Source: Amphibalanus amphitrite
Taxonomy: Eukaryota; Arthropoda; Thecostraca; Balanomorpha; Balanidae
NCBI RefSeq assembly: GCF_019059575.1
Contig: NW_024882772.1
Location: 1 to 64,000 of the forward strand
Direction: 5' to 3'
DNA: 64,000 bases
Shown: one piece after another, positions 2,351 through 61,325 of the stretch
Layout: each line of letters begins with the position of its first letter
Numbering within the stretch: position 1 is the stretch's first letter
Program-made: the position numbers and the translations under genes
The notes under the pieces: model-generated
The model's input: only the letters and a program-made list of their open reading frames with translations
The model's database searches: none
Told to the model about the DNA's origin: nothing

Positions 2351-2393
2351 CGATCTCCAGAGCGCGGGAGCAGGCCCGACGGCCAGGCGGCAT
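2351..2393 (-). CDS. Possible first coding exon of a minus-strand gene
   Basis: On the minus strand an ATG at 2393-2391 sits in a very strong Kozak context (GCCGCAGCCATGC) and opens a 14-codon frame (MPPGRRACSRALEI plus one base). The frame runs straight into a consensus donor GTAAGT (complement of 2345-2350). The sequence upstream on this strand (2394-2700) is GC-rich, as a promoter and 5' leader would be. No later exon was recognised between 1 and 2344, so the product is unknown. It could equally be a chance ATG-donor pair. The evidence is only the two signals and the GC-rich flank. Confidence 0.25.
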
Positions 2394-4879
2394 GGCTGCG
2401 GCGGTCACTTCACTGCCGGCACCTTCAGTCCAATGTCCGGCCCGCTGGACAGGGTGTCGGCGACTCGTCACCTAGGCAACCGACCACCACAGTCCCCCCT
2501 CCCCCCTCCCCCACCCACCACCGAATCAATGGGCCCGTGGCCCGGCCCTGCACGGCCCGTGCATCGATGTGTCACTCTAGCCCTACTAGTCGCCGCTCCC
2601 CCAGCCCGCCGACAGGCATGCCAGTTTACACAACACACCTGTCGACTCCCTGGAAGCCACTGCTCACCCCTATGTGACGAACTTTGATGCCAGGGAAATC
2701 CCAACAGAACACCATAAACTGATTAACTCCCGACTTTAAGCCGTGTCGTGGAGGGAAGGTGATCCAGTTAATCCCCCACGTCATTCAACACCTTTAATAT
2801 GTTTCTCGAATTTCGCACATGTCAAAGTTTCACATCTGCCTTGTTTATTTGGCCGAGGTCAGAACGTCTGGTTTCACAGTTTCGAATTGCTACATTTCGT
2901 TTGGTATTGCTTTACTTCCGGAGCCTGCCTACTTAAAACTTAGCCATACAGCGAAAATCCACCGGGCTGTTGTGATTGGGCCTGCATCCGGGCCGGGCCA
3001 GGTTATAAAAAGCTACCGATCGTTCAGTGATGATGAATATTTGCATGAAAGTCCATTCCATATCAAGCTTGCGGTCGAAGCCTATTCGGCAATTCTCCTC
3101 TTCGTTCGATAATTTGCGTCGTTTAATATGAGCAGAGGTGCAAAAACCTCTTCAGCTGTCACATACTTTGCCAGTGGCACACGGACTCTGTCACGCAGCT
3201 TCCATCAACCAGGTGATGTCAGCTGACAGAGTTTACATTGAGATGACTGGATGTTACTTTTCCCTAATCTCTGAAATATTGATCATTTCTTGAATCTTAA
3301 CATATTTAGGACAGGTTCCAATGATAAGCACTCTTATTGAGCACCTTGAGACCTGACATTTATTTCTACTGTTCTTTTCTCAACAATATTCAAACATTAA
3401 AACCCTTAAAACACCTGCCTTCGGACTGAGATTATACAAATGCAATAAGTAGGTGTGCATGAACTAAAGTACTTTTAAAAGGCTAAATTATATGATAATT
3501 CACTTAAGATTAATAAAATTAAGTTGGTTTAGAGGCAGAAATGACACACAGCCTGGTACACGGCACCCTACACAATGGAAAGCATGAAAATGGGTAAGTG
3601 CCTATATGCCGCAAACCAAAAACATTGTCAAGTTTCTAACTAGATGTCAGGTATGGTCAAAGCTATGGCCTAGTTTAAAGAAGGTAAGTACCTACATTTT
3701 TGATAGGTACTGAGAATTATTAGAAAAACTTGGATTATGTAAAACATGTAGGCTCTAGCACAAACAAAAACAGGTTATTATGCAAATATAGCCTGAAGGT
3801 TGACGGAGGGGCAGCATTCGAGCTGCCCAACATTTTATTAATTTTCCCCCCAAGGTTTTGCACATAAAAATGTGATGCCAACCTTAATCTAAAATATTTC
3901 ATTGATATGATTCAAATAAAAATGTGAATGCATCCTAAATACATTTTTATCTATTTCAATTTTGACAGCAGGGTAGACAGCCAAAATTGGATTCTCATCT
4001 TCACTTATGCCAAATTTTCTGACTGAGTTTTTGTATGCTGACAGTTTTAGCTGAATCTCACCTCAAGGCTCTGTTATTTGCTATTGCTCGTCTTACATCA
4101 TGCCATCCTGGTCCACATGCTTCAAGACTGATTGAACTATAAATATCACTATCCACAGCATACATCTTGTGCTCGGGGCATACAAACAGCCCGCACATCT
4201 TGCCCGCGCAGCCGTAGTAATGCTGTTGGATCCCATACTGCCTCACCTCACCTCCCCAGCCCGGCTAAGACACTCAAAACACACTGTCACAAACTGTCAC
4301 AGCCGGCGTGACAATCCGCCAGCCCCTCGCCAACTCCACGGCCAGGCAATGGGGATTTACAATGGAGACAGCCATATAGGTATATAGGGCAGGTATATAG
4401 GGCCTTGGAGACAGCCGCCGTGTGACAGAATCCGCCGGCTTTTTGCAGCCCCCCGTAAATGCGTCCAGTTATGACGCAGCCGTTACGATTATAATCCACA
4501 GCTAATTTACTGCAAAAAGTAAACTTACTGCAAAATAACAAATGAATAAAAGTGGAGCCCCGTAGTAGCTACCTATCTTACTATTCGCAGTTTATATGGA
4601 ATATAGAACCTGACACTCTAATTGGTGTCTACTTGACTGCAATCTGTCACGTTTCATGGGCTAAAAGTGCTATCTCTGGCACATACTCTGGTTGGCGAGT
4701 TGGCAGGTTTTTGCACCTCTGAATATGAGTGCCATGCGTACAGAGGAATCCCGTCATTGCTTTAAGCAGGGCAGTTGTAAGCTTGGTATGAAACTGACTA
4801 TAGGTGCTTACTTAAGACGACGTCTCAAGAAACCGAGGGCAAGAAGGTGATAAAAACGTACAATGTTAACATATTTGCA
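2394..4879. other. No gene recognised
   Basis: 2394-2700 is GC-rich and could hold the promoter of the doubtful minus-strand exon. 2700-4879 is AT-rich, with short frames only and no recognisable protein or RNA. Confidence 0.5.
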
Positions 4880-10266: not shown

Positions 10267-10890
10267 ATGTCCGGTGAGCTGTACAGTGCACGCGAGACGA
10301 GCAGCGTCGGCGACGCGGCGGGCAGTCGCGCCAGCCCGCGGCCGCGTCGTGCGCCGCCGCCCTACCAGCAGCCGGCACCCATGGACGCGGCCGAGAGGAG
10401 TGAGCGCGGCACGCCGCGCCGGTCGCGGCCGGCCTCCCGCGGCGCCGGCGGCCGCGACACCCGCGGCCTGGACTCGGTGGATGGCGAGTACGCGCCCGTG
10501 CGCGACCCTGGTCCGTCCGAGCCGTCGGCACGTCTGGACCGACCGCTGATGGAGGACGGGCCATACGGGCCCCCGCCGCCGCCGGCCGGCCTGCCGCTAC
10601 ACCCCAGTCCCGGGGCTCCGCACCACTCGCCAGACTTCACCATGAAGCACGGCCTGACGCGAGACACCTACATCCTCGAGCTGCAGGCGCAGAACGGTGA
10701 CTTCCAGCGCGAGCTGAGCAACCTCAAACGCGAGCTGGAGCTCACGGGACAGAAGCTGGGCTCCAGCATGCACAGCATCAAGACGTTCTGGTCTCCTGAG
10801 CTGAAAAAGGAGCGTCAGATGCGCAAGGAGGAGTCGGCCAAGTACGCCATGATGGGGGAGCAGATCCAGCTACTCAACACTGAAACTCAG
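10267..10890 (+). CDS. brp: brp exon A: start codon, proline/arginine-rich N terminus, first conserved block
   Basis: The ATG at 10267 is the first after an in-frame TGA at 10189, so it fixes the start. Residues 1-130 are rich in Pro, Arg and Ser and contain the acidic patch RPLMEDGPYG, which aligns with the insect BRP N terminus. From about residue 140 comes the family's most conserved segment: THD-like TRDTYILELQAQN, then LGSSMHSIKTFWSPELKKER and the first coiled coil to LLNTETQ. This SIKTFWSPELKKER block is diagnostic for BRP/ERC. The exon is 208 codons, ends in phase 0 and is followed by GTGAGT. Overlapping long frames in other registers here are GC-rich shadows. Confidence 0.93.
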
Positions 10891-17373: not shown

Positions 17374-18037
17374 ACGGAGCGAGCGAAGCGAGCGTAGTCT
17401 TTCCTTAGATTAACGGAAATTTCTGAGTATGAGCGGCCGGCCGGCCGGCCGGCCGGCCGTGGTCACGCTTTTGCGAGGCTTATATCTCAGCAACCACTTG
17501 ACCGATTTACATGCGGTAATTTTTGTAGGGTAGCTTCATTCCTTCTACCAAGTATTGCACTATTCCCGATGCATGTGGGTGACCCCTTATGCACGTGCCA
17601 CGTGCAAAACCAAGAGGTGTCACTTTTGTAATTGTTGCAATATCTCGGTAACTACTGGGCCGATTGCGCTGAGAGTTGGCATGTAGGTAGGCACCCACTA
17701 GGCACTGCATATCCATGTGCCAGAGTTGGGGTGCTGCTGCACGTGCGCACGTGCAGGGGTCGTTTCCAGATCTCGGGAACGGCTCGACCGATTGCGCTCA
17801 AATTTGGTACACAGTTAGGGACCGGTTAGTAGGGTGCCGTGCACAAGTCAGTTGGGACCCATTTTGCACGTGCGCACGTGCAGGGTGCCGCTTCCAGATC
17901 TCGAGAACGGCTGGGCCGATTGTGCCCAAATTTGGCACATCGCTAGAGACCGGTTAGTAGGGTGCCGTGCACAAGTCAGTTGGAGGTACTCCCTCGCAAT
18001 TTCGCACGTGCAAGGCCCACCCTCTCGCTCGCTCCGT
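17374..18037. mobile_element. Element with 13-bp TIRs and four tandem CACGTG-bearing units
   Basis: ACGGAGCGAGCGA (17374-17386) is inverted at 18025-18037. A (GGCC)n tract follows the left end (17433-17458). The interior is four imperfect tandem units of about 125-155 bp. Each opens with a motif like ATATCTCGGTAAC...GGGCCGATT and closes with GCACGTG; units 2 and 3 end in the perfect palindrome GCACGTGCGCACGTGC (around 17740 and 17867). No protein frame is convincing; the small frames are periodic because the DNA is. Confidence 0.65.
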
Positions 18038-20856: not shown

Positions 20857-21021
20857 AAGCAGGCCGGGCTGATAAGACAGCTGGAGGAGGAGCTGCGCTC
20901 GCGCGGCGGAGGGGGCGGTAAGAACCCGGCCGTGGTGGAGCTACAGCAGCAGCTGGATCAGTTCTATGTCGAGAACGACCACCTCACCCGAGAAAACACA
21001 ATGCTCAAGGAGACGGTCAAG
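20857..21021 (+). CDS. brp: brp exon B: coiled coil
   Basis: Acceptor TTTTCAG before 20857, 55 codons, donor GTGCGT, phase 0 at both ends. It continues directly from exon A: KQAGLIRQLEEELRSR, a Gly-rich insert (GGGGGK), then LDQFYVENDHLTRENTMLKE. The KQA.LIRQLEEELR and EN.HL.RE blocks match insect BRP. The Gly insert is longer than I would expect for the family. Confidence 0.9.
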
Positions 21022-23733: not shown

Positions 23734-23830
23734 GAGCTCGAGCTGCGCATTGAGGCTCAGAAGCAGACTCTTCTCTCCAGGGACGAGAGTATAAAGAAGC
23801 TCCTGGAGATGCTGCAGCACAAAGGTCTCG
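23734..23830 (+). CDS. brp: brp exon C: conserved coiled coil before the splice choice
   Basis: Acceptor TTTCGCAG; 32 codons plus one base; donor GTGAGT at 23831. It encodes ELELRIEAQKQTLLSRDESI then KKLLEMLQHKGL, nearly identical to insect BRP and vertebrate ERC over KQTL..RDESIKKLLEMLQ. The last base is the first base of a Gly codon. Both exon D and exon E begin with two bases that complete Gly, so this exon is the shared donor. Confidence 0.92.
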
Positions 23831-24285
23831 GTGAGTCACGTATAGGGTATTGGTCGGCATATTGGCCACGTAAGGATGAAATGACTTTGATGAAAGGTCT
23901 GGGGCTGAAAATCTCATCTTGCTATCTTTTTCACGCATTTCCAATCACCTTTAATTGCAGACAGACACCGAATAGGAAAACCGATAATTTACATATTCCG
24001 TAGGTATTCCGCAGTCGACTAATCACGTAAAGATGCTGTGCACTGGAATGTACGGAACTACTCAGCTAATTACGAAATGTAGCACGAGGTTGACGAGAAC
24101 TTCTTCTGCTACCTGTACTTATTTCGCTAGGTAGGCTCATTGAATTGCTTTTAGGTTCTTGTGCCGTTTTGTATTTACAAGCAAGCCCATTTGATTACTC
24201 GCCTATTAACGTTGCATTTATTTTCTAGTTTATCGCTACGCTCGAGTTTAATACATCGCGCAAAACTAACGCTAATAGTAGTGTC

Positions 24286-24576
24286 ACTGACGCCCATTTT
24301 TTAACAAGTATGAGGCTAAATGGGACATCACTGACGTTGACAGTGGTATAGGTACTGACACTGAAGTCAACCATTACTGCACTGATGGACTCACGTTGAC
24401 GTGGCATCACTGACACTGATGGTGCCTCACTGACGTTGATCCGGCTGACACTGATGGCGTACGCAACACTGACGCTGACGTGACTGACGCCAACACTGAC
24501 GTGGCTGACGGTGCCGCTGACGGTGAGCCGGCTGAAGCCGAGCGGCACTGACGGCTGAAGTCCAGCGGACCTGACG
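24286..24576 (+). promoter_or_regulatory. Array of about 14 CTGAC motifs upstream of exon D
   Basis: CTGAC, the core of the animal branch-point consensus, occurs about 14 times in 290 bases on the transcribed strand, often as CACTGACG. The last copy (24571-24575) places its A 24 bases before the exon D acceptor AG, an ideal branch-point distance. It may be a simple-sequence expansion of a real branch point. A regulatory role in choosing exon D is inference. Confidence 0.5.
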
Positions 24577-24598
24577 GCTACAGTCGTCTGTCCTGCAG

Positions 24599-24657
24599 GC
24601 CAACAGGAGGAGGTGCTTCTGGCGCAGCAGCAGGCGCAGACGGCCGCTCACAAGCAG
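24599..24657 (+). CDS. brp: brp exon D: BRP-type short cassette
   Basis: Acceptor TCCTGCAG. With the base from exon C it encodes GQQEEVLLAQQQAQTAAHKQ, a Gln-rich helix that corresponds to the short Glu/Gln-rich segment at this point in insect BRP. It starts in phase 1 and ends in phase 0 at a weak donor (CAG|GTGCTG), so it joins exon G in frame but cannot join exon E in frame. The 3' border is the least certain part. Confidence 0.7.
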
Positions 24658-25606
24658 GTGCTGCCGCTCACCAGTGCTGGTGTCCTGTGTAGTAGTGGTG
24701 CAGTAGTGCCGCCTGCCTGCCTGTCTGTCTGCGAGACTTCCCCTCCCCGCCCGTCCAGCCCCGCCCCACCCGCCCCAACGGCCGAATGGAGACTTATCTA
24801 TATTAGCTAGCCCGCGACTGACCACAGGTAGCCAGTTCGCTGGGAGCCCCCTGACTGAGTGGCTCGTAATTGCAGAGTTATGTCAAGCGCAGCTCTGGTT
24901 TGTGACCGCTGGGAGGCAGGTAAGCGGTCATCGCAAACATCTCCACAACAGTGCAGTGCACTTATGCAGGCGGCAAACTGCCTCTTAACCCCGGCACCTG
25001 GCCACATGTAGCGCCTGTGCTTGCTTTCGATGAATTTCCGCGCAGTGTCACGCTGGCCGCCCGGAGAAGCGTTCACTTATGGTACGCCAATTTCCGCCCC
25101 CGGCACCGGCCGCACCCGACGGTGGGAGCGGCCGGCAGTCCCACCGGGACCGTGGCCGCTGTCTCTAGCGACGGAGAGCTGAAGGAGGCGTCGGGCTCCC
25201 CTGGCGCAGAGCTTACCTGCGGCTCCCGTTCCGCACGCAATCGCTGATTGAAGCTAGTGAATCATGGTACAAATTTTCCTCGTAAATCAGAGTTGCTGCT
25301 GTATTCGCTAGCAAAGATCATCTCTGGGCCTAAAATTAATGAAAAATGATGCTGGATAATTCAAGGGAAAGCGGGTCCAGCGCTTTGAGCTATGTCACAC
25401 AGGGTGCGGACGGGGCTGATGTCGCACTGCTTGTTCAACATCCAACTATAACTACCTTTCCTCCCACTAACTCTACATGTTTGCACCGCTCGGGGCGCGT
25501 CACGCCGGCCCGCTAACACCCCGGCACCGGCTCTGGTGCGTCGGACACCGCCGACCCTGCAGGGGCCACCCGGCTGACCCGGCCTGCGCATGCCTGCCCG
25601 TTTTAG
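24658..25606. other. Intron between exons D and E
   Basis: GC-rich around 25080-25240 and 25480-25600. No further exon can be supported; long frames here have no family match and no splice borders. Confidence 0.5.
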
Positions 25607-25740
25607 GTGGTAAAGCGTTGCCCCAGGAGTGTCTGGCCAACATGCGCACCCAGTCGGATCTGGCCGAGGCCGAGGCACGCATCGCTCACCTCGTCTCCGT
25701 GCTCGGCGAGCGAGACATTGAGCTAGACAATGCGCGACAA
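25607..25740 (+). CDS. brp: brp exon E: ERC-type cassette, part 1
   Basis: Acceptor CCCGTTTTAG, donor GTAAGT. The first two bases complete the Gly codon begun in exon C. It encodes GKALPQECLANMRTQSDLAE then AEARIAHLVSVLGERDIELD, ending NARQ, phase 0. This corresponds in position and pattern to the vertebrate ERC segment with AEAE..L.HLE..L..KE, which insect BRP lacks. It begins in phase 1 and therefore cannot follow exon D. Confidence 0.85.
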
Positions 25741-26330
25741 GTAAGTGGCGACTGGAGCGCCCGCGACGGCCCGGCATGCGCGCCCCGCTCGGCCCGTAGT
25801 GTCCCGAGGTCGGGAGGGAGGAGGCAACTCTCTCGGTGGTGAAATCAGAGCCAGTAGCCCGCCTGTGTTGGTTGGTAGATAAGACGAAATTGGGTAGCTG
25901 AGATGATGAATGTGGAATGCATCAAGTAATCGGGACAGGTCCAGTAGATCCCAAGGCGTTATGGTCAGGTCGCGGCCGCAAATGAGTTTATGTTTTGTTT
26001 ATTTCTTATTGTTGTTAAAAGTGTCAAGTTATTAAAACTAAATATGTATCTGGTTTCTTGTGTTCCCACGAGATTTGTTTAATTACTTAGAATTTGTGTT
26101 GCTTTTATCTGTCGGGAAATACCGTTGCATTATGTTCCCTTCACTTATCAATTTCAATCGTAAGAAACGTAGCGTACTATGTATTCAAACAAATAAGGTC
26201 AAAGATCCTGGACGCACATCTTCGGATATGTTCCTTTTGTTGACTGTGTTTCTTCTGTACATACACTGCACCGTTTCGCCGTAAAGTCGGGCGGCCCACG
26301 GCGTTTGACCGCGTCGCGTGGCCCCTATAG

Positions 26331-26600
26331 GAGCTGGACAACTACATAGACCAGTACCGCCGACTTCAGGCGGAAATACAGCAGAAGCTCAGCCAAAACC
26401 CCACCACGCTGACTGGTATCCTGGAGGTCAAAGACAGACGCATTGAGAGTCTCGAGCAGGAGGTAGCGCGCCTGGACTCGGAGCTGGGAAGGGCTCAGGA
26501 GGAGCAGCTGAGTGGACGCGACTCGCGCGCGCCCACCGGCTCGCCCAGAGCCCCCGGGGCCGGCGGCCTCGAGCACGAAAAGAAACTGCTCAAGGATAAA
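26331..26600 (+). CDS. brp: brp exon F: ERC-type cassette, part 2
   Basis: Acceptor CCCCTATAG, donor GTAAGT, 90 codons, phase 0 at both ends. It opens ELDNYIDQYRRLQAEIQQKL, has the block LEVKDRRIESLEQEVARLD (like ERC EMKD.KI.SLER), a Ser/Pro-rich linker (SRAPTGSPRAPGAGG), then HEKKLLKDK leading into exon G. The frame has no suitable Met and is easily overlooked. With E it forms a 135-codon alternative to the 20-codon exon D. Confidence 0.85.
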
Positions 26601-27264
26601 GTAAGTGCGCCGGAAGTGAGCGGGCTGTGCAGAAACCGCTAACCGCCACTGCACGGCCAGTGGAAACGCTTCTGTCCGCCGGATCGGCGGCAGGCGGCTT
26701 TTTGCCCGGGTGCTTATTTTTCTGTCGCTGATGTGTAAATACAGAATGGAGTGTGTTACGAATGAATGACGTGCTGGTGTAGCACGCTACATCTTGAACA
26801 TTTAACGTAGTATCTTTTCGGCACGGCTCGGTCCGGCAGTCCCTCTCCCTCGCAGTCCGGCCACACGCCTAGCCTCGCTTTCCCACACCCAATTCCCCCC
26901 CCCCCCCCCCAGTTCCCCTAATCTATCACTGTCCGCACAGAATGGGCAGCCGTTAAACTCCCATTAAGACGCGCGCTTTTGGAGACAGCTACCGCAGGAT
27001 GAACGATTCGAACCCCAACAAGTAACAGCTGGATCAGTAACATTGTCAACAGCTCATGGACCCACGCCGAGGACAGATAACGGCTGGGAGCGCTGGATCA
27101 GTAAGATATGTCAACAGATCATGGAGCAGTGTCAAGGATGGATGCCGGCTGGAGCACACAGCCTCCTTTGTCGGGTACAGCAGCCCAGGGTGAAAGACCC
27201 TGGCAAAACAACCGGGTGACCGACCTCACAATGGCCTCATGAGGTAGTTCCAGAGATCTCCGCA
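26601..27264. other. Intron F-G, first part
   Basis: Pyrimidine-rich stretch with a C homopolymer (26895-26912). Two imperfect repeats of AGCTGGATCAGTAA...GTCAACAG(A/C)TCATGGA occur at 27026-27060 and 27090-27124. No exon. Confidence 0.5.
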
Positions 27265-27660
27265 GAGGAAGAAGGCGCTGACTTACGGCCACACCCGGGC
27301 CAGTGGGCGGAGCAAGAGTGACGTCACAAGGGGCGTTGCCGGCAGACGAAACGGAAGGAAACAAAAGTTTGAATAAAATGAAATTGAAGAACCAAAATTA
27401 AAACTCGAAAATCACAAACCTTTCGGGGATTGTTTTATGCCAGCGATTACTAAAATGATAAAGCACTCAACACGAAGACGATTCGACGGCCAAAAATTGC
27501 AGGCACAGAGGAGCAAGGTGACTAAACAGGACAGAGGGCGCCATCTTACGGCCCCACCCACCAGAAGAAGGCAGAGGAAGATGACGTCGCAAGGGCGTGG
27601 CAGTCACCCCTCCCCCCCCCAACTATAAAAGGGTGCGCCACCCAACCAGAGAGAGAATCA
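27265..27660 (+). promoter_or_regulatory. Candidate internal promoter with CREs and TATA box
   Basis: A diverged module occurs twice: CTTACGGCC.CACCC...GAG..TGACGTC.CAAGGG..G at about 27280-27345 and 27545-27605. The first holds a perfect CRE (27319-27326) and the second a near CRE (27582-27589). TATAAAAG follows at 27624-27631, and a plausible start (ATCACAGTCG) is about 30-36 bp further. It lies on the brp strand, upstream of exon G. It could instead be a solo promoter of an unrecognised element. Confidence 0.45.
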
Positions 27661-27836
27661 CAGTCGAGCAGCCGAGAGTCACAGTCCACAGCTGGAGCCG
27701 GAGACGCCATCTGGAGGCCGCCGTCAGTCCGGGGTCACCCGCGAGAAGCCTCTTCAGTTCGAGTGATCAGAACCGAGGACAGTAGCCGACGCTTGTGACC
27801 ACACTGAGAAGCGGAAGCGCAGAGAAACTCCAGAAT
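27660..27836 (+). other. brp: Candidate alternative 5' leader exon of brp
   Basis: From the predicted start to a GTGAGT donor at 27837 there is not a single ATG in 177 bases, as a 5' leader should be. Joined to exon G, the first in-frame Met is at 32623 (DIMALTAKLK). That would give a protein lacking the N-terminal blocks, comparable in principle to the short insect BRP isoform. Only sequence signals support this. Confidence 0.4.
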
Positions 27837-30800
27837 GTGAGTGTTGTTGAAAAGTCTGCTCAATCCCAATCCTTGACCCCCCCCCCCTCTGCCCGGTTGC
27901 CGTGCCGTGACGACTGCCAAACATTTTCGGTTGCCATAAAATGCACTCTCAATTGGAATTGGAAAACTTAAATTACTTTGAGCTTATTGGTCCAGACACC
28001 CTAGTAGCATATTAGGATCTGAATTTCGAAGTCATGTCAGAGTCGCCAGCAAACCGTTATTGTCAGTTGGAGTTCACGATTAGGCCCAGAGCGAGAGGCT
28101 AAAATTTGAATAAGCAGCTCATGGTCACGAACGTTGAGATTGATGACTGGATGTGTGACAGCGTTGAAATGTCTTTGTCTTCGGTCAAGCTGGTTCGTTC
28201 GATTTATTATGGGCGATGGCCAGGTGCGTTTTGAGGTTGGAACGTTTGTGAAATTAAGGGTTTAGATTCGTGCTGTACTCACTAAAAGTTGCATTGCGAA
28301 ATCATTGGTAATATTGCTGTAGGAATTAATTGCGAAGTCGAAATCAATTATAGAACAGGTAAATACGGTTGAAAGGGAATGTAATGTTTTAAGGTGGCGA
28401 CTGATTCATGCGATCGATCTATGAATATGGCTATGAGTTATGGTTTCCGACAGATACGAATGCTTGAGCTTACGGCGGAATTTCTTCTGTTACTTAGGTG
28501 CAGAGTTGCGAGCAGTGGTTTGAGGTTGACGGTTTGACACTTAGCGACTTTAGATGGTCACTTTGCGTCATTGAAATTGCGAAATGTCGAGTAACAGGTA
28601 GATGTAGAATTGTTTGTGGTTAGAACTAATATGCGACTAATATAGGTGCCGATCGTTGTGCTTTTGTAGAATAAATACTAGAAAGGACCACCTTTGTTGG
28701 GGAACGATTAAATGGGACAGGAATTTAATTTAAAAAAAAACTTACGTTGAATGGAGCTGATGAGATGTCGAACAGGGAGATATTGCAGCGATATTTTACC
28801 AAATTCACACTCACTGACACATCCGGTGAATCCACCCGGCCAGAAGAGACAACACGCACGAGCATTGCACCGCGAGTGATGACGCGCCCATCGCGGCGTG
28901 GCCTTGACTGACTGTCGACGCGACGCCAGCCGGCGGCCAGTATCGTCGCTCTCGACGCGGGCGTTGAGCCGCCAGAGGGCGTAAAAAGCAGCCACAACAG
29001 GGGCAGTGGGTTAGCCGTAATTGGGGCGCGGGCGGTAGGTGAAGGTCATTGTATATAGGAGCATGGTTAGTTGTGGAAAGTTGCAACGGGGTAAGAACGT
29101 AAACAGTTAATGCATAATTTTAAATATGACATGCTATTTGATATTTAGGACTGCACTTCGTTTGATGCGCATTGTTTACTGCTAATAGGATGATTTAAAA
29201 TAGATTCCCTATGAAAGGCTAGGGACCCTATGACAATATTCTGGCACTCTATAAAGATAATTTGTTTAGGTAACTAGTAGCCCATCAGAAGCTATCGAAC
29301 GAGTTTCAAGGAGTCATTTCCGTTTGAGCATTCAGCAATTCACTATGATACGGTGGAACACAACCAGACGACAGATCGGTGCGTACTAATTGGTTCTAGA
29401 TCATCTGATGAAATCAAGAGCGGTTCAAGGTCTGCTAGGATTGTATACGAGAACTGATGATTAGGTTCACGCGTGCAGCAGCAATTAGGACTTGAGATTA
29501 CGATTAGATGCGTTTCTGTTATTCGCGTTCTTGAGAGTTAGCGCCAATAATTACTCCACCAATATTGGCACAGGGCATTGTGAGGCACAGACGGCTTGTT
29601 TGCCCGCCTCCTATGGCGTAACGTTTACCAGCATGACTGTATGAGACACAGATGCACTTCTCTAAACCCAAGTCCAGACCGGAATAATAAGAGGGACACA
29701 CCGTCACGTACGCAGGGCATATGCACGTTTTCCGCCAGTGGTACCGGCCACTGTTAGTTTTCCCGCTTAGGTAACACTGGGTGAGAAGGCAGTGAGAGGT
29801 TTCTACGGCAGGGGGAAGGGGAAGATTGGCACAGTGTGCAGTGGAGAGTAAGTTATGCCAAAGGCAAGAAGCCGAGGGTCAGGGGTGAGTCACCCAAAAG
29901 TGCGGATAAGGCGAGCCGTAGTGTCCCGAATAAGTCCTCATACTTAGTTTGTAAAGGTACCTTAATCGGTACTGGACAGCCTCAGGGGAGGGAAGAATGT
30001 ACTCCAGGACACGTAAGGCCTTGAAGAGTAAATCCCATGGTTTAAGGAGAGTTCCTGAGGAGAGTTCCAGGATATGAACGGTGGTCCCTGGGTCGTGAAC
30101 GGGAATGTTACACGCGGACCGGAAGAGGGCATAGGTAATCTCTCCCGGATAGAGAGATAAGTCGGATATAAATCGTGTATGTGTGTACTATAAGTCTATC
30201 GGACGTGTAGTGAATCCCATAAATTAGTAGGGTGGATATTGGTGCAATTATTCTGGACGGCCCTGCGATAAGTATCTTTGTCGCCGGTTAGCGGAGCATG
30301 CACTGGATTTCGGAAAGAGACATTTATCTCGCCGGGGAGACCATGGTTTGTAAGACGCCTAACACTATCGGAGGGAATTTCGGGGGCTACCAATTAAATT
30401 TGGGTGAATACATGAAATGTGAACGTAATGCGAGCAAGGGTGTGAGAATGATGACGCATGAATCTTAGAGTAAGGCCGATAGGAATTTGGTAGAGTTCGG
30501 TTACGGCAGTCGAACAAATGATTCTTGAGGGCAACTTAAAACTAGCAACGCTAATACGAACTAAGTGGGCAATTTTCGTAATGGGGAGGCCAGTGATATA
30601 GGGATGGGTGACTGGACGAATGATCACATTCAATTAATCAATGTAATTACCACCCATAAGTTTGGCAGTGGTCATCGGGACTTCGAATGCCCTGTCCTTC
30701 ACCTGCCCATCTGTGCCGCAAACCCAGCTGATCGGATCCCGTTATCCCTAATCCGAGCAGCGAAGAAGCATCTCGTGCATCATGGTCTATACAATGAACA

Positions 30801-30866
30801 GAATCATCAAGCCTCTAAATTAAAAAGCATCTTCCATCAGATGCATTTGTACGCAAGGTGGATACT
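27837..30866. other. Long intron upstream of exon G, no gene
   Basis: Moderately AT-rich single-copy-looking DNA. Short frames on both strands (for example near 28710-29086 and 30196-30633) match nothing I recognise and lack splice or start context. Confidence 0.5.
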
Positions 30867-30955
30867 TACATCTCTATCCGGTGGATCTCATCTATCTCAG
30901 GATCTCATCACTATCTGGATCTCTCACTAGATCTATCTCGGGATCTCTTCAACGA
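30867..30955. repeat. Degenerate GGATCTC-type short tandem repeat
   Basis: ATCTCxxTATCTCxGGATCTC motifs recur about seven times in 90 bases. A small cryptic repeat. Confidence 0.5.
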
Positions 30956-32577
30956 CTCTCAAGCTCCCCTGTTCTACCAGCTCTACTATCGAGTTCCTTC
31001 CAGCAGCGAATCTCTTTTCTGCTACACCGCCGAACAGCAGTGGACCGCGCTGTTTGATGAACCTCAAGATGCAGCTCTTTTTATTTCTGTACTTTTCCTT
31101 CCCTTCATTCCCTTGCTACACTGGCCAGCTGCAATCGCGTCTTCGAATGTGTGGCCACACGTTCCTTCTATTTAGAATAATATAGGTAGATTTATGCTTC
31201 AAAAATAACTAACCCTCATCAGAACCAGAACAAGGAACATGTCGCATGTTTCTTCGATTCAGGATATAGTATATCGTAGCCCCATGCAGTTGAAATCACT
31301 AACCCGCATCGGAATAAGACAAGTTTAGCGACTCCCACCTACCTTCTGTCGAAAGTCATTGTCTTTTAGCCCTTTGATCCAAACAATACCTAGTTGCCTT
31401 CATTTAATATTTCTAGGTAATAAATTCAGTAAATTCATCATATATCTTAGTTACATCGTCCGCCGATATATCTCCCCACCAGCGATAATGCGTGGTATAA
31501 CTGCGCCTGCAGCGCTAATGGTTTACAGTAATGGACGGTAACTCGATAAATGGGCAACTGATTTTACCCGTTGGTAGACAGGACTAATTCCAGCACAACA
31601 ATGTGAAGTGTCTACTATTGAAAGGCGACCTGCGTCTATTTAGTTTACAATGGGCCATCGATAATAATTTAGTGCTGAGTGAGCACTAAGCAACTACATA
31701 CATATGGTATGAAAAGGTGGATCATTTACGGTTAATTCGCCTACAGTTCCAAAAAGCATACCTTTTTGTCGGGCCATTTACGAGACAAACGTGCAGTATT
31801 CGAGACGTGGGGTTGTGTTCCGCCGAATGTCTACCTCCGAGACACGTTTAGCTGGAAGTGGTAAACGGTGTCTAATTCCTCAAAATGATGTTGAACACTT
31901 ATCTAGTGTAGCATGTTTGCAAGTGTCATTGACGAGGTTGGCACGAATGACACAACGTTGTAAAAAGCATGCTTACCTTAGCTTGCATGGCCTTTGATGC
32001 TCACATATAATATCTGACAGGAGCATATCCTTGCATCAATCCTGCTTTTTGTGTTTGGTGTTCTCTTGTAAGATTCATAGAATGTGCTTGCAATCATTCA
32101 CTGGGTGATCGTTGATGAGCGCGAAGAAATGGAAGTGATCAGATAAGTAGGCGACTGTTGACTTAAGCTAGCTTGACGGCTGCACTTTGAAAAAAGGTTT
32201 GTCCTCGTATGTTATTTAATGTAACACAAGTTATCAATGTATCATACTGCGGGACATAAAGCTGTGTAAATACATATCATTCCACTGGTATGTCACTTCC
32301 TTCTCATCTGATCTTTATGAAAATCCCAAATAACATTGGTTGTGACAAATTTTAGCGTAGGCACTAGCCTGCTTTCGAGTGGGTCACCTCTCACAACTCA
32401 GGATCTTCATCAGCAAGTCGCAGACGGAAACAGATCAATAAACAAATTCACGAGCATTAGCTGCAGCTCTGTGCCCGGGATCACCGACCCGGGGCTGCCA
32501 CTGTCCCCTGGGGTCCCTCCCTTACCGCCAGCACTCCAGTCCTGCAGGGACCGGTCATAACCAGCGTCTCGTTGCAG
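30956..32577. other. Intron before exon G, no gene
   Basis: No exon, RNA or mobile element recognised; AT-rich. Confidence 0.5.
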
Positions 32578-32745
32578 TACGACGAGGCTCGTGCCGAACT
32601 GCAGCGCCGCGATCAGGACATCATGGCGCTGACGGCCAAGCTGAAGACGCAGGAGGAGCAGCAGCACGATTACCAGCGCCACATCGCCGTCCTCAAGGAG
32701 TCCCTCTGCGCCAAGGAGGAGCACTACAACATGCTCCAGGCTGAT
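32578..32745 (+). CDS. brp: brp exon G: highly conserved coiled coil
   Basis: Acceptor TCGTTGCAG, donor GTGAGT, 56 codons, phase 0. It encodes YDEARAELQRRDQDIMALTA then DYQRHIAVLKESLCAKEEHY and NMLQAD. The HI.VLKESL.AKE block is shared by all BRP and ERC proteins and anchors the alignment. Both internal cassettes (D or E+F) must splice here. Confidence 0.95.
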
Positions 32746-32874: not shown

Positions 32875-33042
32875 GTTGAGGAGCTTCGACAGCGCCTGGA
32901 GGAAAAGAATCGCACAATCGACAAGAAGACGCAGTCAGCTCTTCAAGCTTCACAGGAGCGCAACAGGCTCAGCGGCGAGCTGAACGAAGTGCGCGACCAT
33001 CTCGACATCAAGGAGCGGAAAATTAACGTCCTGCAGCGAAAG
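32875..33042 (+). CDS. brp: brp exon H: coiled coil
   Basis: Acceptor CTCCCTTAG, donor GTAAGC, 56 codons, phase 0. It encodes VEELRQRLEEKNRTIDKKTQ, then ERNRLSGELNEVRDHLDIKE, then RKINVLQRK. The D(I/V)KERKINVLQ.K motif is conserved between ERC and BRP. Confidence 0.95.
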
Positions 33043-33531: not shown

Positions 33532-34593
33532 GTGGAGAACCTGGAGGAGCTGCTCAGGGAAAAGGACAGCCAGGTGGACCTGGCTCGTTCGCGGCTCACT
33601 GCCGTCCAGGCGCACCATTCCTCCTCAGAGGGAACTCTTACCTCGCTCGAGGAGGCCGTCGGAGACCGAGAGCGGCAGATCACGCAGCTGCGCGAACAGC
33701 GGGATCGTGCTGAGAAGGAGCGCGCACAGGAACGAGAGCAGAGCGAACGAGAACAGGCAGACCTCAAAATGAAACTTCACGCCCACGAGTCTGAGCTGGA
33801 GAAGCTGCGTGTGCGTCTGGAGCGTGCTCAGGCAGAGAAGACTCGGCTGGAGAGTCGTCTGGAGGGCTCGCAGGCAGAGTTGGGGAAGGTTTCGGCGGAG
33901 CTGGACCGGTTACAGGGAGACGCCGGCAGCCGTAGCTCCGAGATCGAGACGGCACGTCAGAGGGCCACTAAGCTGGATCTCGAGGTGGATCGACTGCACG
34001 CTGAAAACGAGAGACTTCGCTTCGAGATGGAGCGTGATCGCGAGCGCGTCAATCGAGAGCGTGAGCGCGAGCGTGAGGCGCGCGATTGGGAGCGTTCAAC
34101 CACCCCAGTGTACACACCACAGCGAGAACGCCACCTCAGCGGGAGTCTGGCCGCCTCCCTGGAGATCGAACGCCTTCAGGAGCGGCTGGACAAAGCGCAG
34201 ACGGACCTGCGCCGTGCGCAGACAGAATCGCGTCTCCACCAGGGCGACAACGAGAGGGCGCAGGTGGAAGTAGAACAGCTGCAGGAGAAACTCGAGAAAT
34301 CCTCCGGCGAAGTGTTCCGTCTGAAGACTCGTCTGGAGAGTGCGCAGACTGAGAGGGAACAGCTTCAGGAGGAGCACGACCGCACTCAGATGGCTCTGAC
34401 CCGGTGTATGACCGAGAAGGATCGGCTGCAGGCGGAGGTGTCTCACCTGCGGGACGAGGTGGAGCACACGCAGCAGAGCGTCGGGCGCGCTCAGCTGCAG
34501 CACGACAAGGCGCAGGGAGAGCTCAGCAAGACGCAGCTGGAGCTCTCTCAGCTGCAGGACAAGCTGGACAGGACCACCGGCGAACTCCGGCGG
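33532..34593 (+). CDS. brp: brp exon I: end of ERC homology and start of the BRP long coil
   Basis: 354 codons, donor GTGAGT, phase 0. Residues 1-80 continue the shared block (VENLEELLREKDSQVDLARS, VQAHHSSSEGTLTSLEEAVG, IT.LREQRDRAEKER). The rest is Glu/Arg/Gln-rich heptad coiled coil of the BRP type, with a short break (WERSTTPVYTPQRERHLSGS) that interrupts the coil around residue 190. The acceptor lacks the usual pyrimidine before AG, but the protein alignment fixes it. Confidence 0.93.
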
Positions 34594-35028: not shown

Positions 35029-35181
35029 ATACAAATGGACAAAGAAAAGGCAGTTTATGAATTAGATTCACTGCAAGTTCAAGTTGACAAGGCACTGGGG
35101 CAGTGTTCAAGAGTACAAAAAGAAAAGGAGGTGGTTCAGACTGAGCTTCAGAAGCTGAAGGACAAACAGGACAAGACGCAG
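35029..35181 (+). CDS. brp: brp exon J: coiled coil
   Basis: Acceptor GGTTTTCAG, donor GTATGT, 51 codons, phase 0. It encodes IQMDKEKAVYELDSLQVQVD then KALGQCSRVQKEKEVVQTEL and QKLKDKQDKTQ. The codons are AT-richer than those of the neighbouring exons, which is unusual in this GC3-rich gene. It is part of the BRP-type coil. Confidence 0.88.
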
Positions 35182-38144: not shown

Positions 38145-38333
38145 GGCCAGCTGACCCGCGTGACGAAGGAGAAGGAGTCCTCCGATGCGGAGAGGTCGCG
38201 TCTGACGGAGAAGCTGGACGTGCTACAGAGCCAGCTAACCAAGGCGCTCCGTGACCGGGACGCGGCGCATACCGAGCTCGATCTCCTCAAGGAAAAGGTC
38301 GATAAGAACGCCGCCATGATTCAGAAGCTGCAG
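38145..38333 (+). CDS. brp: brp exon K: coiled coil
   Basis: Acceptor ATCTTCCGCAG, donor GTCAGT, 63 codons, phase 0. It opens GQLTRVTKEKESSDAERSRL and ends AAMIQKLQ. Heptad coiled coil. Confidence 0.9.
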
Positions 38334-38507: not shown

Positions 38508-38647
38508 CTTGAAAAAGAAGATAAAAACGCGGAGATAGATCATCTGAAGGACAAGCTCGATAAGAATGATCTGCTGGTTTGTCGACTCCAAGAAGAGAAG
38601 GAAACGTTGCAGCGCGATCACGAACGATTGGTAGAAAAGTATGAAAG
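38508..38647 (+). CDS. brp: brp exon L: coiled coil
   Basis: Acceptor TTCCCTTCAG, donor GTACAG, 46 codons plus two bases (phase 2), matched by exon M. It encodes LEKEDKNAEIDHLKDKLDKN then ETLQRDHERLVEKYER. The repeated DKLDKN resembles the KVDKN of exon K, suggesting internal duplication of a coil module. Confidence 0.9.
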
Positions 38648-39134: not shown

Positions 39135-41403
39135 GTCGCAGGGGGAGGTGCAGCGCCTTCAGGCCCGGCTTGAGACGGCCCAGTCGGACCAGGACCGGCT
39201 GCAAGCTGACGGCGAGAAGGCCCACCTGCTGCTCAACAAGACCCGTGACGAGCAGCGGCGCGGTCAGGAGGAGCTCGAGAAGCTGCAGGAGCTCTACGAC
39301 CGCAGCGCAGTCCAGTTCATGCGGATGAAGGACAGCGAGGCGCGCTGCCGTGAGGAGACTGAGCGCATCACTGTCGAGCTGGAACACCTCCAGGAGAAGT
39401 ACGAGCGAACGCAGATGGAGGCCAAGAAGCTGGCCAACGAGCGGGAACAGCTGAAGGAAGAGGTCGAGAAGCTGACGTTTGATGTGGAGCGTGCCAAGGC
39501 GCAGTATCAGAAACTTCAGAGTAACCAGGAACGTAGCAACGAGGAGACGGCGCGACTTCAGGTAGAACTGGACAAGGCCCAGGAGAAGCTGGAGCGGAAT
39601 CAGTCGGAGCTGAAGAAGGCTCAGACTGAGCGCGACAAAGCCCTGGCGGAGACAGACACCGGCCAGGCAGAGATAGAGCGGTACCTGGTGCGGATCGGGA
39701 AGTACCAGGACACACAGGAGCGAGGTCGGGAGGAGCAGGAGCGGCTCAAGTTTGAGGTTGAGCGTCTCCGGGAGCGCCTGGAGAAGGCACAAATGGAACT
39801 AGAGACTGAGCATCTAATGAAGGAACGCTTTGAACAGGATGCTTCAAAGCTTCGCCTCGAGCTAGATCGTCTGCAGAGCAGCCAGGAGCCTGGTCTGGCG
39901 ATGAGTGACGATGGCAAGTCGAGGATCCAGGCCGAAGTACTCCAGGGAGAACTGGATCGTATGCGCGATAAGTACGACTCGGCACAAATGGAGATACGCA
40001 AACTCCGAATACAGCTAGAAAAGCGGCACGAGGAGATTCTGATTCTGCAAAAGGAGCTAGACAAATACGAAAATTGCTCAATGAAGCTGAGTTCCGAAAA
40101 GGAACAGCAGCAGAGCGAGCTGGAACGCATCAAGTCTGAGCTGGGCCGCATTCGCTCTCGGTACGAGGCGGCGCAGACGGAGGTAACGCGTCTGGAGCAG
40201 CGGACCGCGCACCTGGAGTCGGAGAACGTGCGTCTGCGCGGCGAGCTGCAGCAGGCGCAGTCGGAGATCGAGCGGCGCCGACACACGCCCGACGAGTCCA
40301 AAGGTGAGGCCGAGCGGCTGCGCGGTAAGCTGGAGAGGGCGCAGGCTGAACTGCAGAAAGCCACCGAGCAGCGGCGGGCGGTGGAAGCGGAGGCGGCCAG
40401 GCTCGCTCGCGACCTGGAGCACGCCCAGCAGCGGCTGGCGCGCTTCAGGGACAGCACCGAGGCGGCCAAAGTCGAGTTCGAGAAGATGGCTGCCGAGATC
40501 GAGTCGCTGCACAGTCGGCTGGAGCAGACGGCCGCGGAGCTGCGCACCGCCGAGGCTGCCCGCAGGGATCTGCAGGAGCGCCTCGACCAGCTGGGCTCCA
40601 GTGGGGAGCAGGCGGAGCAGCGGGTAGCCGTGTTCCAGGAGCAGTTGGCCACCGCCTGCGGGGAGCTGGAGCGGGTCCAGTTGGAGAGACGCGCCGCTGA
40701 GGACCGCGCCAAGAAGACTGAGGCGGAGATGGCCGGGGCGGCGCGGCGCGCCACCGAGCTGGAGTCGCGCCTCTCCCAGCTGACTGCCGAGCGCGACCAG
40801 CTGACCGCGCGGCTGGAGGAGCTGCGCCGTCAGCTGGTCGCGCAGCAGGCGCTCAGCGAGGAGGAGCGCGAGGAGGAGGAGCGCACCTCTCGGGAGCTGC
40901 GCTCGGAGCTGGAGCGCGTGCGCCGGGACGCAGAAGAGGCCCGCACGCGTCACGAGGAGGCGCTGGCCGCGGCCGGTAACGACACGGAGCTGCTCCGTCT
41001 GGCCCAGCAGGCGGCCGACCAGGAGCGGCGACGTGCCGAGGCGGCCGAGGGCAGCACCAAGGAGCAGCGAGCGGAGCTGGAGCGGCTCCGGCAGCTGCTG
41101 GAGACCTCCCAGACCGAGCGGCGGGAGTCGGGAGACGTTCTGCAGCGGCAGCTGGAGCAGCAGCGTCTGCAGCTCGAACAGCAGCGCCAGCAGCTGGAAC
41201 AGCAGCAGGTGGTGATCCAGCAACAACAGCAGCAGTTGGCGGCGGCGCAGGCAGAGGAGCCGCCGGCCGGCGACTCGATGGAGGTACAAAAGCTGCTCGC
41301 GGAGCTGGAGCGTTCCAAGAGCGACATGCAGAACGCGCGAACAGAGCGAGAGCGGCTGCAGTCGCAGCTGGAGATCCTGGTGCAGGAGCTGCAGAAGACC
41401 CAG
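39135..41403 (+). CDS. brp: brp exon M: giant BRP-type coiled-coil exon
   Basis: One exon of 756 codons, phase 2 in and phase 0 out, donor GTCAGC. It is an almost uninterrupted heptad coil, very rich in Glu, Gln, Arg and Leu, with no Pro over long stretches. Short repeated modules (LE.AQ...DRLQ, ERAQ.EL.K) suggest growth by internal duplication. It ends in a Gln-rich part (LEQQRLQLEQQRQQLEQQQ). In insects the equivalent region forms the filament of the T-bar that extends into the cytoplasm. Long frames on the other strand are shadows of this biased composition. Confidence 0.95.
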
Positions 41404-42875: not shown

Positions 42876-43097
42876 CTGGATCTCCGGGAAGCCCAACAGA
42901 GGCTATCGACTGGTCACGCCGACGGCGACACGGAGCTGCAGCAGAGGCTAGAGGAGCAGCGGCAGCTGGCGCAGCAGCGCGACCAGCAGCTGCAGAAGCA
43001 GGCCCGACAGCTGGCCGACTCAAATAGGCAGCTGGAGGACTCGCGGCAGCAGCTGCAGCAGCTGCAGTCGCGGCTGCACCAGCTGGAGGCGGCGCAG
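42876..43097 (+). CDS. brp: brp exon N: Gln-rich coiled coil
   Basis: Acceptor ACGTTTCAG, donor GTGAGC, 74 codons, phase 0. It encodes LDLREAQQRLSTGHADGDTE, then RQLAQQRDQQLQKQARQLAD and SRQQLQQLQSRLHQLEAAQ. Insect BRP is also Gln-rich near its C terminus. Confidence 0.9.
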
Positions 43098-43440: not shown

Positions 43441-43625
43441 CCCTCAGCGGAGGGCGACCGGTCGGAGCCGGCGGCGGCGCAGCTGGCGGAGCTGCAGGCC
43501 GAGCTGGCGCAGCTGCGAGAGGAGCAGAGTCGCGCGCAGAGCCAGTCCGAGCGGCTGCTCCACCTGATGCAGATGTCGCAGGAGGAGCAGCTGGCCAAGG
43601 ACCGGCAGATCAAGGAGCTGCAAGA
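43441..43625 (+). CDS. brp: brp exon O: coiled coil
   Basis: Acceptor TGCGCCCCAG, 61 codons plus two bases, donor GTGAGT at 43626. It encodes PSAEGDRSEPAAAQLAELQA then SERLLHLMQMSQEEQLAKDR and QIKELQ. The split codon GA+T joins exon P as Asp. Reading through the donor meets TGA at once, which supports the border. Confidence 0.88.
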
Positions 43626-44452: not shown

Positions 44453-44584
44453 CTGCTCTCCCTGTCGCTGCCAGACTCGGCCGGAAGCGCTGCCAGTGCC
44501 GCCGCCAGCGCCGCCGGAAACGTGGCCGGAAACGCCGCCAATGCTTCCAAGGCCATGGGCGGCTTCCTCAAGAGCCTTTTCTAG
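44453..44584 (+). CDS. brp: brp exon Q: BRP-type C terminus with stop
   Basis: Acceptor TTTCGCGGGCCAG, 43 codons then TAG at 44582-44584. Small-residue-rich (SAASAAASAAGNVAGNAANA), ending in the hydrophobic/basic tail KAMGGFLKSLF. In insects the last ~17 residues of BRP are needed to tether synaptic vesicles (the brp-nude allele), so this tail is a good candidate for the same role. No AATAAA was seen within 250 bp downstream. Confidence 0.8.
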   Translation: MLSLSLPDSAGSAASAAASAAGNVAGNAANASKAMGGFLKSLF

Positions 44585-44843
44585 AAAAGTGAATGACACT
44601 GCCGACGTCGTAAATTGTTCTATTGTATCGTGATCTGTGAAATCGTGTGGAATCAGGCGGACTCACCGCGTCTGCCGGCGCTACTGGGGCGTTAAGATGT
44701 CGGGAGTGGGAGGCCATTTCGTTGATGGGCGGAAGTGCTCGTCGGCTTCCGCTGGGTCTTTCGTTTTTGTTTGGTTCTCGCCGCGCGTTTGGTGTGCGCG
44801 AGTGTGGGTGGCGGCAGCGCTGACCGTCTGGCCGGCGACCCAG

Positions 44844-45137
44844 GCTGACCAGGACGAGGCGGCGCGGCTGCACCGCGAGCTGCGCCACCGTGACGCCGAG
44901 CTGGAGCGGCGCGGCGCGCGCGTCTCCGAGCTGGAGGCCGAGGTGACGGCGCTGGAGGCCGAGCTGGCGCAGGCCGGACGGCTGCCAGAGCTCGCCCAGA
45001 TGGTGGCGCTGGTCAAACAGAAGGCGACCCGCTGCCAGGAGCTGGAGGGCGCGCTGCGAGAGGCGGCGCGCCAGACTGAGGACCGCGAGGCCGCTCTGCA
45101 CGACGAGGCGGAGAAGCACGCAGAGCTGACACAAAAG
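44844..45137 (+). CDS. brp: brp exon R: ERC-type C-terminal coil
   Basis: Acceptor GGCGACCCAG, donor GTAGGT, 98 codons, phase 0. It encodes ADQDEAARLHRELRHRDAEL, then VALVKQKATRCQELEGALRE, ending DEAEKHAELTQK. The ELE.ALRE pattern matches the vertebrate ERC C-terminal coil, not insect BRP. It lies after the stop of exon Q, so Q must be skipped to use it. Confidence 0.85.
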
Positions 45138-45387
45138 GTAGGTCGTCAGGACTTCGTTAACCCCGGCTGTGATGATGTTTGAATTGGAAGGATGCAAAGA
45201 TGTGAAAGGAAACTGAAACTGACTTTTGCAGGCTATTCAAATGTTATATGACGGAAATAAACGGTGCACGCTCCTAGCGCAATGTTATATGTGCACCGCA
45301 ACCTTGCTTGTGAGAAGTCAAAACGCTGTGTGCGGCTTATGTCGTATGAAGGTGACGCCCCTGACAGTCCGGCTATGCACTGCGCAG

Positions 45388-45548
45388 ATGCAGGAGCTGG
45401 AGGGTCGTCTGGGGGCCATGCAGCAGGCGGCTGACGCTAGCTGCAGCAGCTGCACGCCGCTGCGGAAACGGCTGCGGACCGTGCAGCTGCAGCTGCAGCA
45501 GCTCCACTCGGAGAGACGCCGCCAGCTGGAGGAACTCTTTGACCTCAA
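45388..45548 (+). CDS. brp: brp exon S: ERC-type C-terminal coil
   Basis: Acceptor CACTGCGCAG, donor GTAAGC, 53 codons plus two bases. It encodes MQELEGRLGAMQQAADASCS, then LQLQQLHSERRRQLEELFDL. The ERR.(Q/H)LEE...(M/L)K block is a clear ERC signature. Two Cys pairs (CSSC) replace the usual polar residues. It could encode an internal Met start, but it has an acceptor at its border. Confidence 0.87.
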
Positions 45549-45790
45549 GTAAGCAGCGGATGACAGCGTCATTGTGCTTGTAACGGTGCAGTACACGGAT
45601 AGGGCAGTACACGGATACCTACAGGATTTCCTTTTTTTGCTCCGCCAGCCTAAAGCCAGTCTGGAGCAGGGTTCAGGATTTCCAAAGCTGCAATTTCCAT
45701 GCTGAGCATCTTCTTCGGGTACCCTCGGCCTCTTTTCTTTTCGCCGCCTCTGCCGGTGACCTGAGACACCACTGCTTCGCGTTTCGGCAG

Positions 45791-45938
45791 GCAGGAGGCG
45801 CTGGCGTCGGCGGTGAGTGAGAAGGACGCCCACCTGGCGCTGCTGGAGGTCTCGGGGATCCGGGACGCGCGCACTGCGGAGCAGGCAGACAGCCTCGCCA
45901 GCCAAAAGCAGAAGCTCGTCGAGAGGATGCGCCATGAG
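45791..45938 (+). CDS. brp: brp exon T: ERC-type signature segment
   Basis: Acceptor CGTTTCGGCAG, donor GTCAGT. The codon AA+G joins it to exon S. It encodes KQEALASAVSEKDAHLALLE, then SLASQKQKLVERMRHE. QEAL..A.SEKDA.(I/L)ALLE is one of the best-conserved motifs of vertebrate ERC proteins, so this identification is strong. Confidence 0.92.
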
Positions 45939-46166
45939 GTCAGTCACAAACCTGAGGGCACCGGGCACTGGGCAGGGTGGAAGAGTCTACTGACAAATCA
46001 GTCCTCAGTCACGGCGCTTAAAAATAAGTCCTCAGTCACCGGGGCTTGGCCATTTTTGTGTGTTGTAGAGACCAGAGAGAGACGTCCTAAGACGCCGGTG
46101 CTAGGAAGGGTGACTTAGTTATTGTACCATTTTGTTACACGTGATTTTTTTCACTTTGTCCGCCAG

Positions 46167-46271
46167 AACGAGTGCCGGGTGCGGCTACTGAGTGAGTGCG
46201 AGGCTGTGGATGTCTCCAGTCTTCCGTCGAGCGATGACTCGTCCCCGCGCCTTTCACCAGTCTCATCGTAG
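46167..46271 (+). CDS. brp: brp exon U: ERC-type end, stop or further splice
   Basis: Acceptor TTTGTCCGCCAG; 34 codons to TAG at 46269-46271. It encodes NECRVRLLSECEAVDVSSLP then SSDDSSPRLSPVSS. The Ser/Asp/Pro-rich end parallels the region just before the vertebrate ERC C terminus. However, the PDZ ligand (IWA) that binds RIM in vertebrate ERC is absent, and a good donor (GTAGGT at 46268) overlaps the stop. A further exon may therefore complete the protein. Confidence 0.7.
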   Translation, partial: NECRVRLLSECEAVDVSSLPSSDDSSPRLSPVSS

Positions 46272-52046: not shown

Positions 52047-57056
<5,010 letters not shown>

Positions 57057-59452: not shown

Positions 59453-59520
59453 ACCGTACGGATGCGGATGACCACCGGACCGGCAATCAGTCGCTAACGA
59501 CTTCTGCCGCCCGCCCCCTT

Positions 59521-59594
59521 CCCGTCCCGTCCCGTCCCGTCCCGTCCCGTCCCGTCCCGTCCCGTCCCGTCCCGTCCCGTCCCGTCCCGTCCCG
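59521..59594. repeat. (CCCGT)n microsatellite, about 14 units
   Basis: Perfect pentamer repeat, adjacent to the SINE-like fragment. Confidence 0.97.
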
Positions 59595-61243: not shown

Positions 61244-61325
61244 AGTTCGGCTTGACAAGGGAACCGAGAGGTGGCAGATAGCGATATTACGTATCTGAAC
61301 GAGGGTTACGCACGAGCTCAGATGG

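Follow-up and report, generated by a model that had tools for sequence, protein, structure and literature searches.

Exon phase in a crustacean bruchpilot/ERC gene points to an either-or choice between BRP-type and ERC-type internal exons

The window analyzed here, a stretch of 64,000 nucleotides from Amphibalanus amphitrite (contig NW_024882772.1, positions 1 to 64,000), carries a bruchpilot/ERC (ELKS/CAST) gene that we modelled from splice sites and reading frame and, later, from fetched relatives (Table 1). The model may lack additional exons between J and K, between M and N, and between O and P. In its D form it stays open from exon A to exon O for 1833 residues, including a long coil-like body, and two C-terminal endings, one BRP-type and one ERC-type, lie within positions 44453-46271. 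Exons A to H matched the Pfam Cast family (PF10174; cut-off 29.1 bits) in both internal forms described below, at 266.2 bits in one stretch covering profile positions 1-402 for the E-F form and at 223.5 bits in two stretches for the D form; that is, inclusion of E-F makes the match continuous.

Table 1. Modelled exons of the bruchpilot/ERC gene and other features of the window
Feature	Positions	Strand	Length or copies	Borders and remarks
Bruchpilot/ERC (ELKS/CAST) gene, modelled	10267-46271	+		
Exon A	10267-10890	+		
Exon B	20857-21021	+		
Exon C	23734-23830	+	97 nt	ends in phase 1 (G of a Gly codon); donor gtgagt
Exon D, BRP-type alternative	24599-24657	+	59 nt	cag/GC...CAG/gtgctg; ends in phase 0
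Exon E, ERC-type alternative to D	25607-25740	+	134 nt	tag/GT...CAA/gtaagt; phase 1 to 0
Exon F, ERC-type	26331-26600	+	270 nt, 90 codons	phase 0 to 0
Exon G, common downstream exon	32578-32745	+	168 nt	phase 0; conserved in arthropod and other bilaterian rows
Exon H	32875-33042	+		
Exon I	33532-34593	+		
Exon J	35029-35181	+		
Exon K	38145-38333	+		
Exon L	38508-38647	+		
Exon M	39135-41403	+		
Exon N	42876-43097	+		
Exon O	43441-43625	+		phase 2
Exon P, BRP-type end	44453-44584	+		reads ...MGGFLKSLF, then a stop
ERC-type tail, exon t1	44844-45137	+		
ERC-type tail, exon t2	45388-45548	+		
ERC-type tail, exon t3	45791-45938	+		
ERC-type tail, exon t4	46167-46271	+		
Tandem repeat	17738-17983		1.9 copies	128-bp unit
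Tandem repeat	54885-55098		107 copies	TC unit
Tandem repeat	59516-59594		15.8 copies	CCCGT unit
Open frame	61299-62378		360 codons	resembles the RNase H end of a retrotransposon, by eye

Exon C holds a conserved coil ending DESIKKLLEMLQHKGL, followed by the single base of a Gly codon, and its match to the solved ERC2 chain 8whm_A reaches KGL. Exons D and E each supply the two bases that finish this codon, as the initial annotation had read, and the coordinates, phases and codon counts it had given for exons C to G were borne out base for base. Together with the carried Gly, exon D encodes the 20-codon peptide (G)QQEEVLLAQQQAQTAAHKQ, exon E amounts to 45 codons and E plus F to 135 codons; F has a Gly/Pro-rich loop close to its end, and a possible alternative acceptor of E lies 9 nt downstream (25616), in frame. 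When all eight include/skip combinations of D, E and F were spliced between C and G at the modelled borders, the four that remained open into exon I (C-D-G, C-E-G, C-D-F-G and C-E-F-G) were exactly those with one of D and E. Joining D to E, with or without F, led to a stop at 25724 inside E, which agrees with the earlier reading of this join as out of frame; F alone between C and G led to a stop at 26444 in F, and skipping all three to a stop at 32742 in G. Exon F is symmetric and hence frame-neutral and exon E also ends in phase 0, so that both C-E-G and C-D-F-G are in frame. The initial annotation had proposed two either-or cassettes, a BRP-type D against an ERC-type pair E plus F. The exclusion of D and E by frame stands, but E plus F as one unit is ruled out because F is frame-neutral and arthropod proteins show both E without F and D with F.

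Across the eight combinations enumerated, having both or neither of D and E always breaks the frame, and we found no mechanism barring double inclusion in the form of a short intron, docking stems or duplicated exons. The introns of the C-to-G region measure 768, 949, 590 and 5977 nt and would pose no steric block to joining D with E, no inverted repeats of at least 20 nt with both arms between C and F were found and thus no docking stem, and D and E differ in length and have no evident mutual similarity as judged by eye. Steric or stem-based exclusion was rejected on these intron lengths and on the lack of such a repeat. Mutual exclusivity therefore describes what holds at the reading frame and, as shown next, in the proteins of relatives, and a mechanism beyond the frame may act in addition. 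A different 3' border of D that restores the frame with E, which the initial annotation had named as grounds for giving up exclusivity, is not impossible since open GT donors leaving the E-compatible phase exist at 24673, 24679, 24688, 24691, 24694 and 24697. These are weaker, matching the consensus at 3-5 of 9 positions (hand count) vs. 6 of 9 for D's own donor, which ties with that of exon L as the lowest among the modelled donors; they would append residues unlike D, nothing corresponding to them appeared among the relatives seen, and we rejected them on these grounds.

With the D form as query, 27 rows among the 120 matches listed (lengths about 430-1367) were taken as arthropod, 13 by name and 14 by their place in the tree; isoforms and close species are among them, i.e., the rows are not independent. 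Twelve had D only, one (Leptidea) D and F, seven E without F, four E and F, and the other three comprised fragments from Daphnia and Scylla, in which F is present but the D/E site cannot be read, and a beetle model (P0179) with F, neither D nor E, and junk-like sequence between. At the D/E site itself 25 rows were readable, with D in 13, E in 11, neither in one (the beetle model) and both in none; five of the calls were made by eye where the text pattern had failed, three for E (P0165, P0173 and P0175) and two for F (P0156 and P0178). All four in-frame combinations occur across the arthropod proteins listed, with F seen after E, after D (in the Leptidea protein, D runs directly into the start of exon F) and omitted after E. 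The E-F form as query (lengths 1071-3409) returned no arthropod among its best 120 rows; five-letter words in common with the query numbered 47 for the fly sequence and 17-24 for the six other rows compared. Two fly rows deserve separate mention. P0158 (Drosophila yakuba isoform H) has an extra in-frame insert of 18 residues, LDLEREIKKFAQEEQGVR, separating D from G, so spacer length may differ among fly forms too, and P0173, a row labelled Rhagoletis zephyria, has E and is placed by the tree beyond the insects and crustaceans, perhaps reflecting mite contamination of that assembly.

A tree built on 111 residues places the window sequence next to crabs with moderate support (87/86). The E rows, except that of Eriocheir, join the spider Argiope and lie beyond the clade that unites insects and crustaceans (90/85, with the deep forks left open), and among the rows examined D was seen solely within that pancrustacean clade. 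E is most simply ancestral for this reason. Outside arthropods, E-F aligned to a same-place segment in 16/16 aligned ERC rows, which cover vertebrates (2 rows from rat), amphioxus (5 rows, all Branchiostoma), molluscs, a brachiopod and a nemertean. Beyond this set, a hemichordate row and chelicerate-like rows have the segment as well. Hence, while the likenesses behind the earlier labels of an insect BRP form (D) and a vertebrate ERC form (E-F) hold, the latter is better named the ancestral bilaterian ERC form. Read from these sequences, the simplest history has E-F as the segment of ancestral bilaterians, to which D was apparently added as an alternative in Pancrustacea.

Most pancrustacean rows listed have D. 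All 4 of 4 Drosophila yakuba rows seen have D only and, outside the window, E was seen in a single annotated pancrustacean protein (P0175) among the matches listed. These last two points would fit E, and perhaps F, being a relic that is still open but no longer spliced, with the species making the BRP form only. We consider this unlikely, as E and F are stop-free, have gtaagt donors that match the consensus at 8 of 9 positions vs. 6 of 9 for D, and are similar to the proteins of relatives, and the crabs, which the tree puts closest to the window, have an E-F isoform. That isoform is P0175 itself, Eriocheir sinensis X17 (automatically named), and it can be set beside P0168, a D-form protein of 973 aa that appears cDNA-like because its contig measures 3244 nt. 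Starting at the exon G join, the two differ only in an 8-residue insert and two Gly until close to the end, where the last residues diverge, and were taken as one gene because of this near-identity. It looks, judging by sequence identity, which also assigns P0168 to its organism, as though a crab relative makes both D and E-F from one gene. Two Scylla rows under one locus tag (O3P69_001991) show a similar picture, P0183 with D and P0178 with F, and their 98.4% identity over 625 residues leaves some doubt as to one gene in one animal.

The C-terminal part of the gene offers a second choice. The tail exons t1-t4 scored 262 against zebrafish ERC1 (shuffle maximum 108) and 430 against P0168 (maximum 96; 100 shuffles each), and no GIWA end was seen, by eye, in the modelled tail. 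The tail motif QEALxxAxSEKDAxxALLE probably lies within the Rab6-binding region of ELKS, and the FLKSLF end of exon P may correspond to the fly BRP end. The ERC-type tail probably includes a counterpart of the Rab6-binding region, which PMC10267580 gives as ELKS residues 849-922; exons G-H were dropped as a candidate for this part, since the domain is near the C-terminus. Joining exon H (33042) straight to N (42876), which omits the long BRP coil of exons I-M, is in frame and matches short crab and Leptidea forms (INVLQRK into LDLHEAN or LDLREAN). Because the window gene has both endings and both internal forms, the two choices could be tied, D going with the long BRP coil and the BRP end and E-F with the ERC tail. 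This, too, has a low probability in our view: the crab proteins P0168 (D) and P0175 (E-F) both omit the long coil and have a short body and an ERC-type tail in common, which makes the D/E choice in crabs separable from that of body and tail.

Scores against chance segments bear on whether D, E and F are exons at all. Among phase-matched, stop-free AG..GT segments of 47-71 nt drawn from five introns plus the 3' flank, six stretches in all, exon D was the best of 607 against the D peptides of relatives with a score of 34; the runner-up scored 14, and the best of 1022 antisense segments 16. On the gap between 34 and 14 we rejected D as a chance open segment. Exon E scored 67.5, compared to 21 for the top same-strand scorer lying outside E and F (584 segments), 35 for a segment inside F, and 44.5 for an antisense low-complexity ERER repeat, the best of 1168 antisense segments. 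Exon F scored 90.5 at its exact borders and 91.0 and 91.5 in two overlapping variants with a later acceptor, compared to 17 for the best segment outside F (among 285) and 28 for the best of 1091 antisense segments. That D is nonetheless an unused, decayed or chance exon and only the ERC form is made is highly improbable: its weak donor, its 8-9 of 20 positions matching relatives and its one residue of extra length (20 vs. 19 in the fetched relatives) would fit this, but it leads the segments by that margin, retains the Gly, EE, QQ and terminal KQ, and is of the form common in pancrustacean rows.

Taken together, it is very probable that one crustacean bruchpilot/ERC gene keeps E-F and a short D at the same junction, where the frame demands D or E and leaves F optional. 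Under this model, the spliceosome would join either D or E after exon C, with F as a separate, frame-neutral exon that may follow either, and transcripts with both or neither of D and E would run into the stops in E, F or G and yield truncated RNA that is probably degraded. The splicing of D and E in A. amphitrite, the decay of the other forms, the regulation and the function are what we infer. The choice would set the spacer between the exon C coil, ending at KGL, and the G-H coil, which measures 20 residues with D, 45 with E, 110 with D-F and 135 with E-F. In the structure model of a D-form protein from a beetle, D continues, after a break of four residues, into the G-H helix, and in that of crab X17 the E-F part forms two helices, 148-205 and 223-257, which are separated and followed by loops (low to moderate confidence in both; mean pLDDT 65.6 and 66.9). 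The D spacer would accordingly be 20 residues that lengthen the G-H helix, and the E-F spacer 135 residues that add a pair of short helices along with flexible loops, and the longer, looser spacer may alter the reach and partners of the scaffold. Spacer choice may tune the geometry, flexibility and partners of the presynaptic scaffold. A further route to variation may lie within the F-G intron, where a TATAAAAG box precedes a GTGAGT donor by about 210 nt (27624-27840). The only two ATGs of exon G (32623 and 32731) are both in frame, so that a transcript starting at this box could yield an N-terminally short protein that bypasses D/E; start-site variants of BRP and ELKS are known (PMC5830537).

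The initial annotation knew of no description of this switch, and none was found in the open-access literature searched, but E-F is already on public record in the crab isoform X17. Comparisons of BRP with ELKS usually treat the fly protein as simply lacking parts of ELKS. In the window gene, the ELKS internal part absent from the fly can share a locus with the fly-type part as its alternative, so the effect of this part on active-zone structure becomes testable within one animal. It is tempting to speculate, although we give this rather low odds, that two separable switches, D/E(+F) and the BRP or ERC end, let one gene yield both a BRP of insect type and the ancestral ERC/ELKS scaffold. T-bar-like and ELKS-like scaffolds would then be built by different neurons or at different active zones, flies having kept one side of each switch. 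The D/E choice itself looks like a real yet fairly ordinary splicing choice.

Several known systems provide points of comparison. Drosophila cacophony (PMC11828482) likewise has either-or internal exons in an active-zone gene, but D and E of the window have no evident similarity by eye and exclude each other by frame, with no docking stem. ERC/ELKS/CAST proteins (vertebrate ERC1/ERC2, amphioxus, molluscs, Lingula and Lineus) share with the window gene E-F after KGL, the G-H coils and the QEALxxAxSEKDAxxALLE tail, but have the D alternative in 0 of the 16 aligned rows. Internal exons of mammalian ERCs are called potentially alternatively spliced, of unknown relevance, in PMC5830537. A figure legend in that review pairs mouse residues that end at 320 and resume at 436 with fly residues that end at 264 and resume at 280; this gap fits the difference between E-F and D, and the parts of that review on this alignment make no mention of a switch within one gene. 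Insect bruchpilot (Drosophila brp) has the same N-terminal exons, D segment, G-I coils, long coil and RLLxLMQMSQEEQ-like stretch, and differs in that the four Drosophila yakuba rows have D only, whereas the window gene adds E, F and the ERC-type tail. Finally, the decapod ERC isoforms (P0175, P0168 and Scylla O3P69_001991), known here as database entries alone and with a D of 19 rather than 20 residues, have the same either-or at the same Gly (KGIG-KEEE... vs. KGIG-DKNID...), a counterpart of exon F, and the same exon G join as the window gene.
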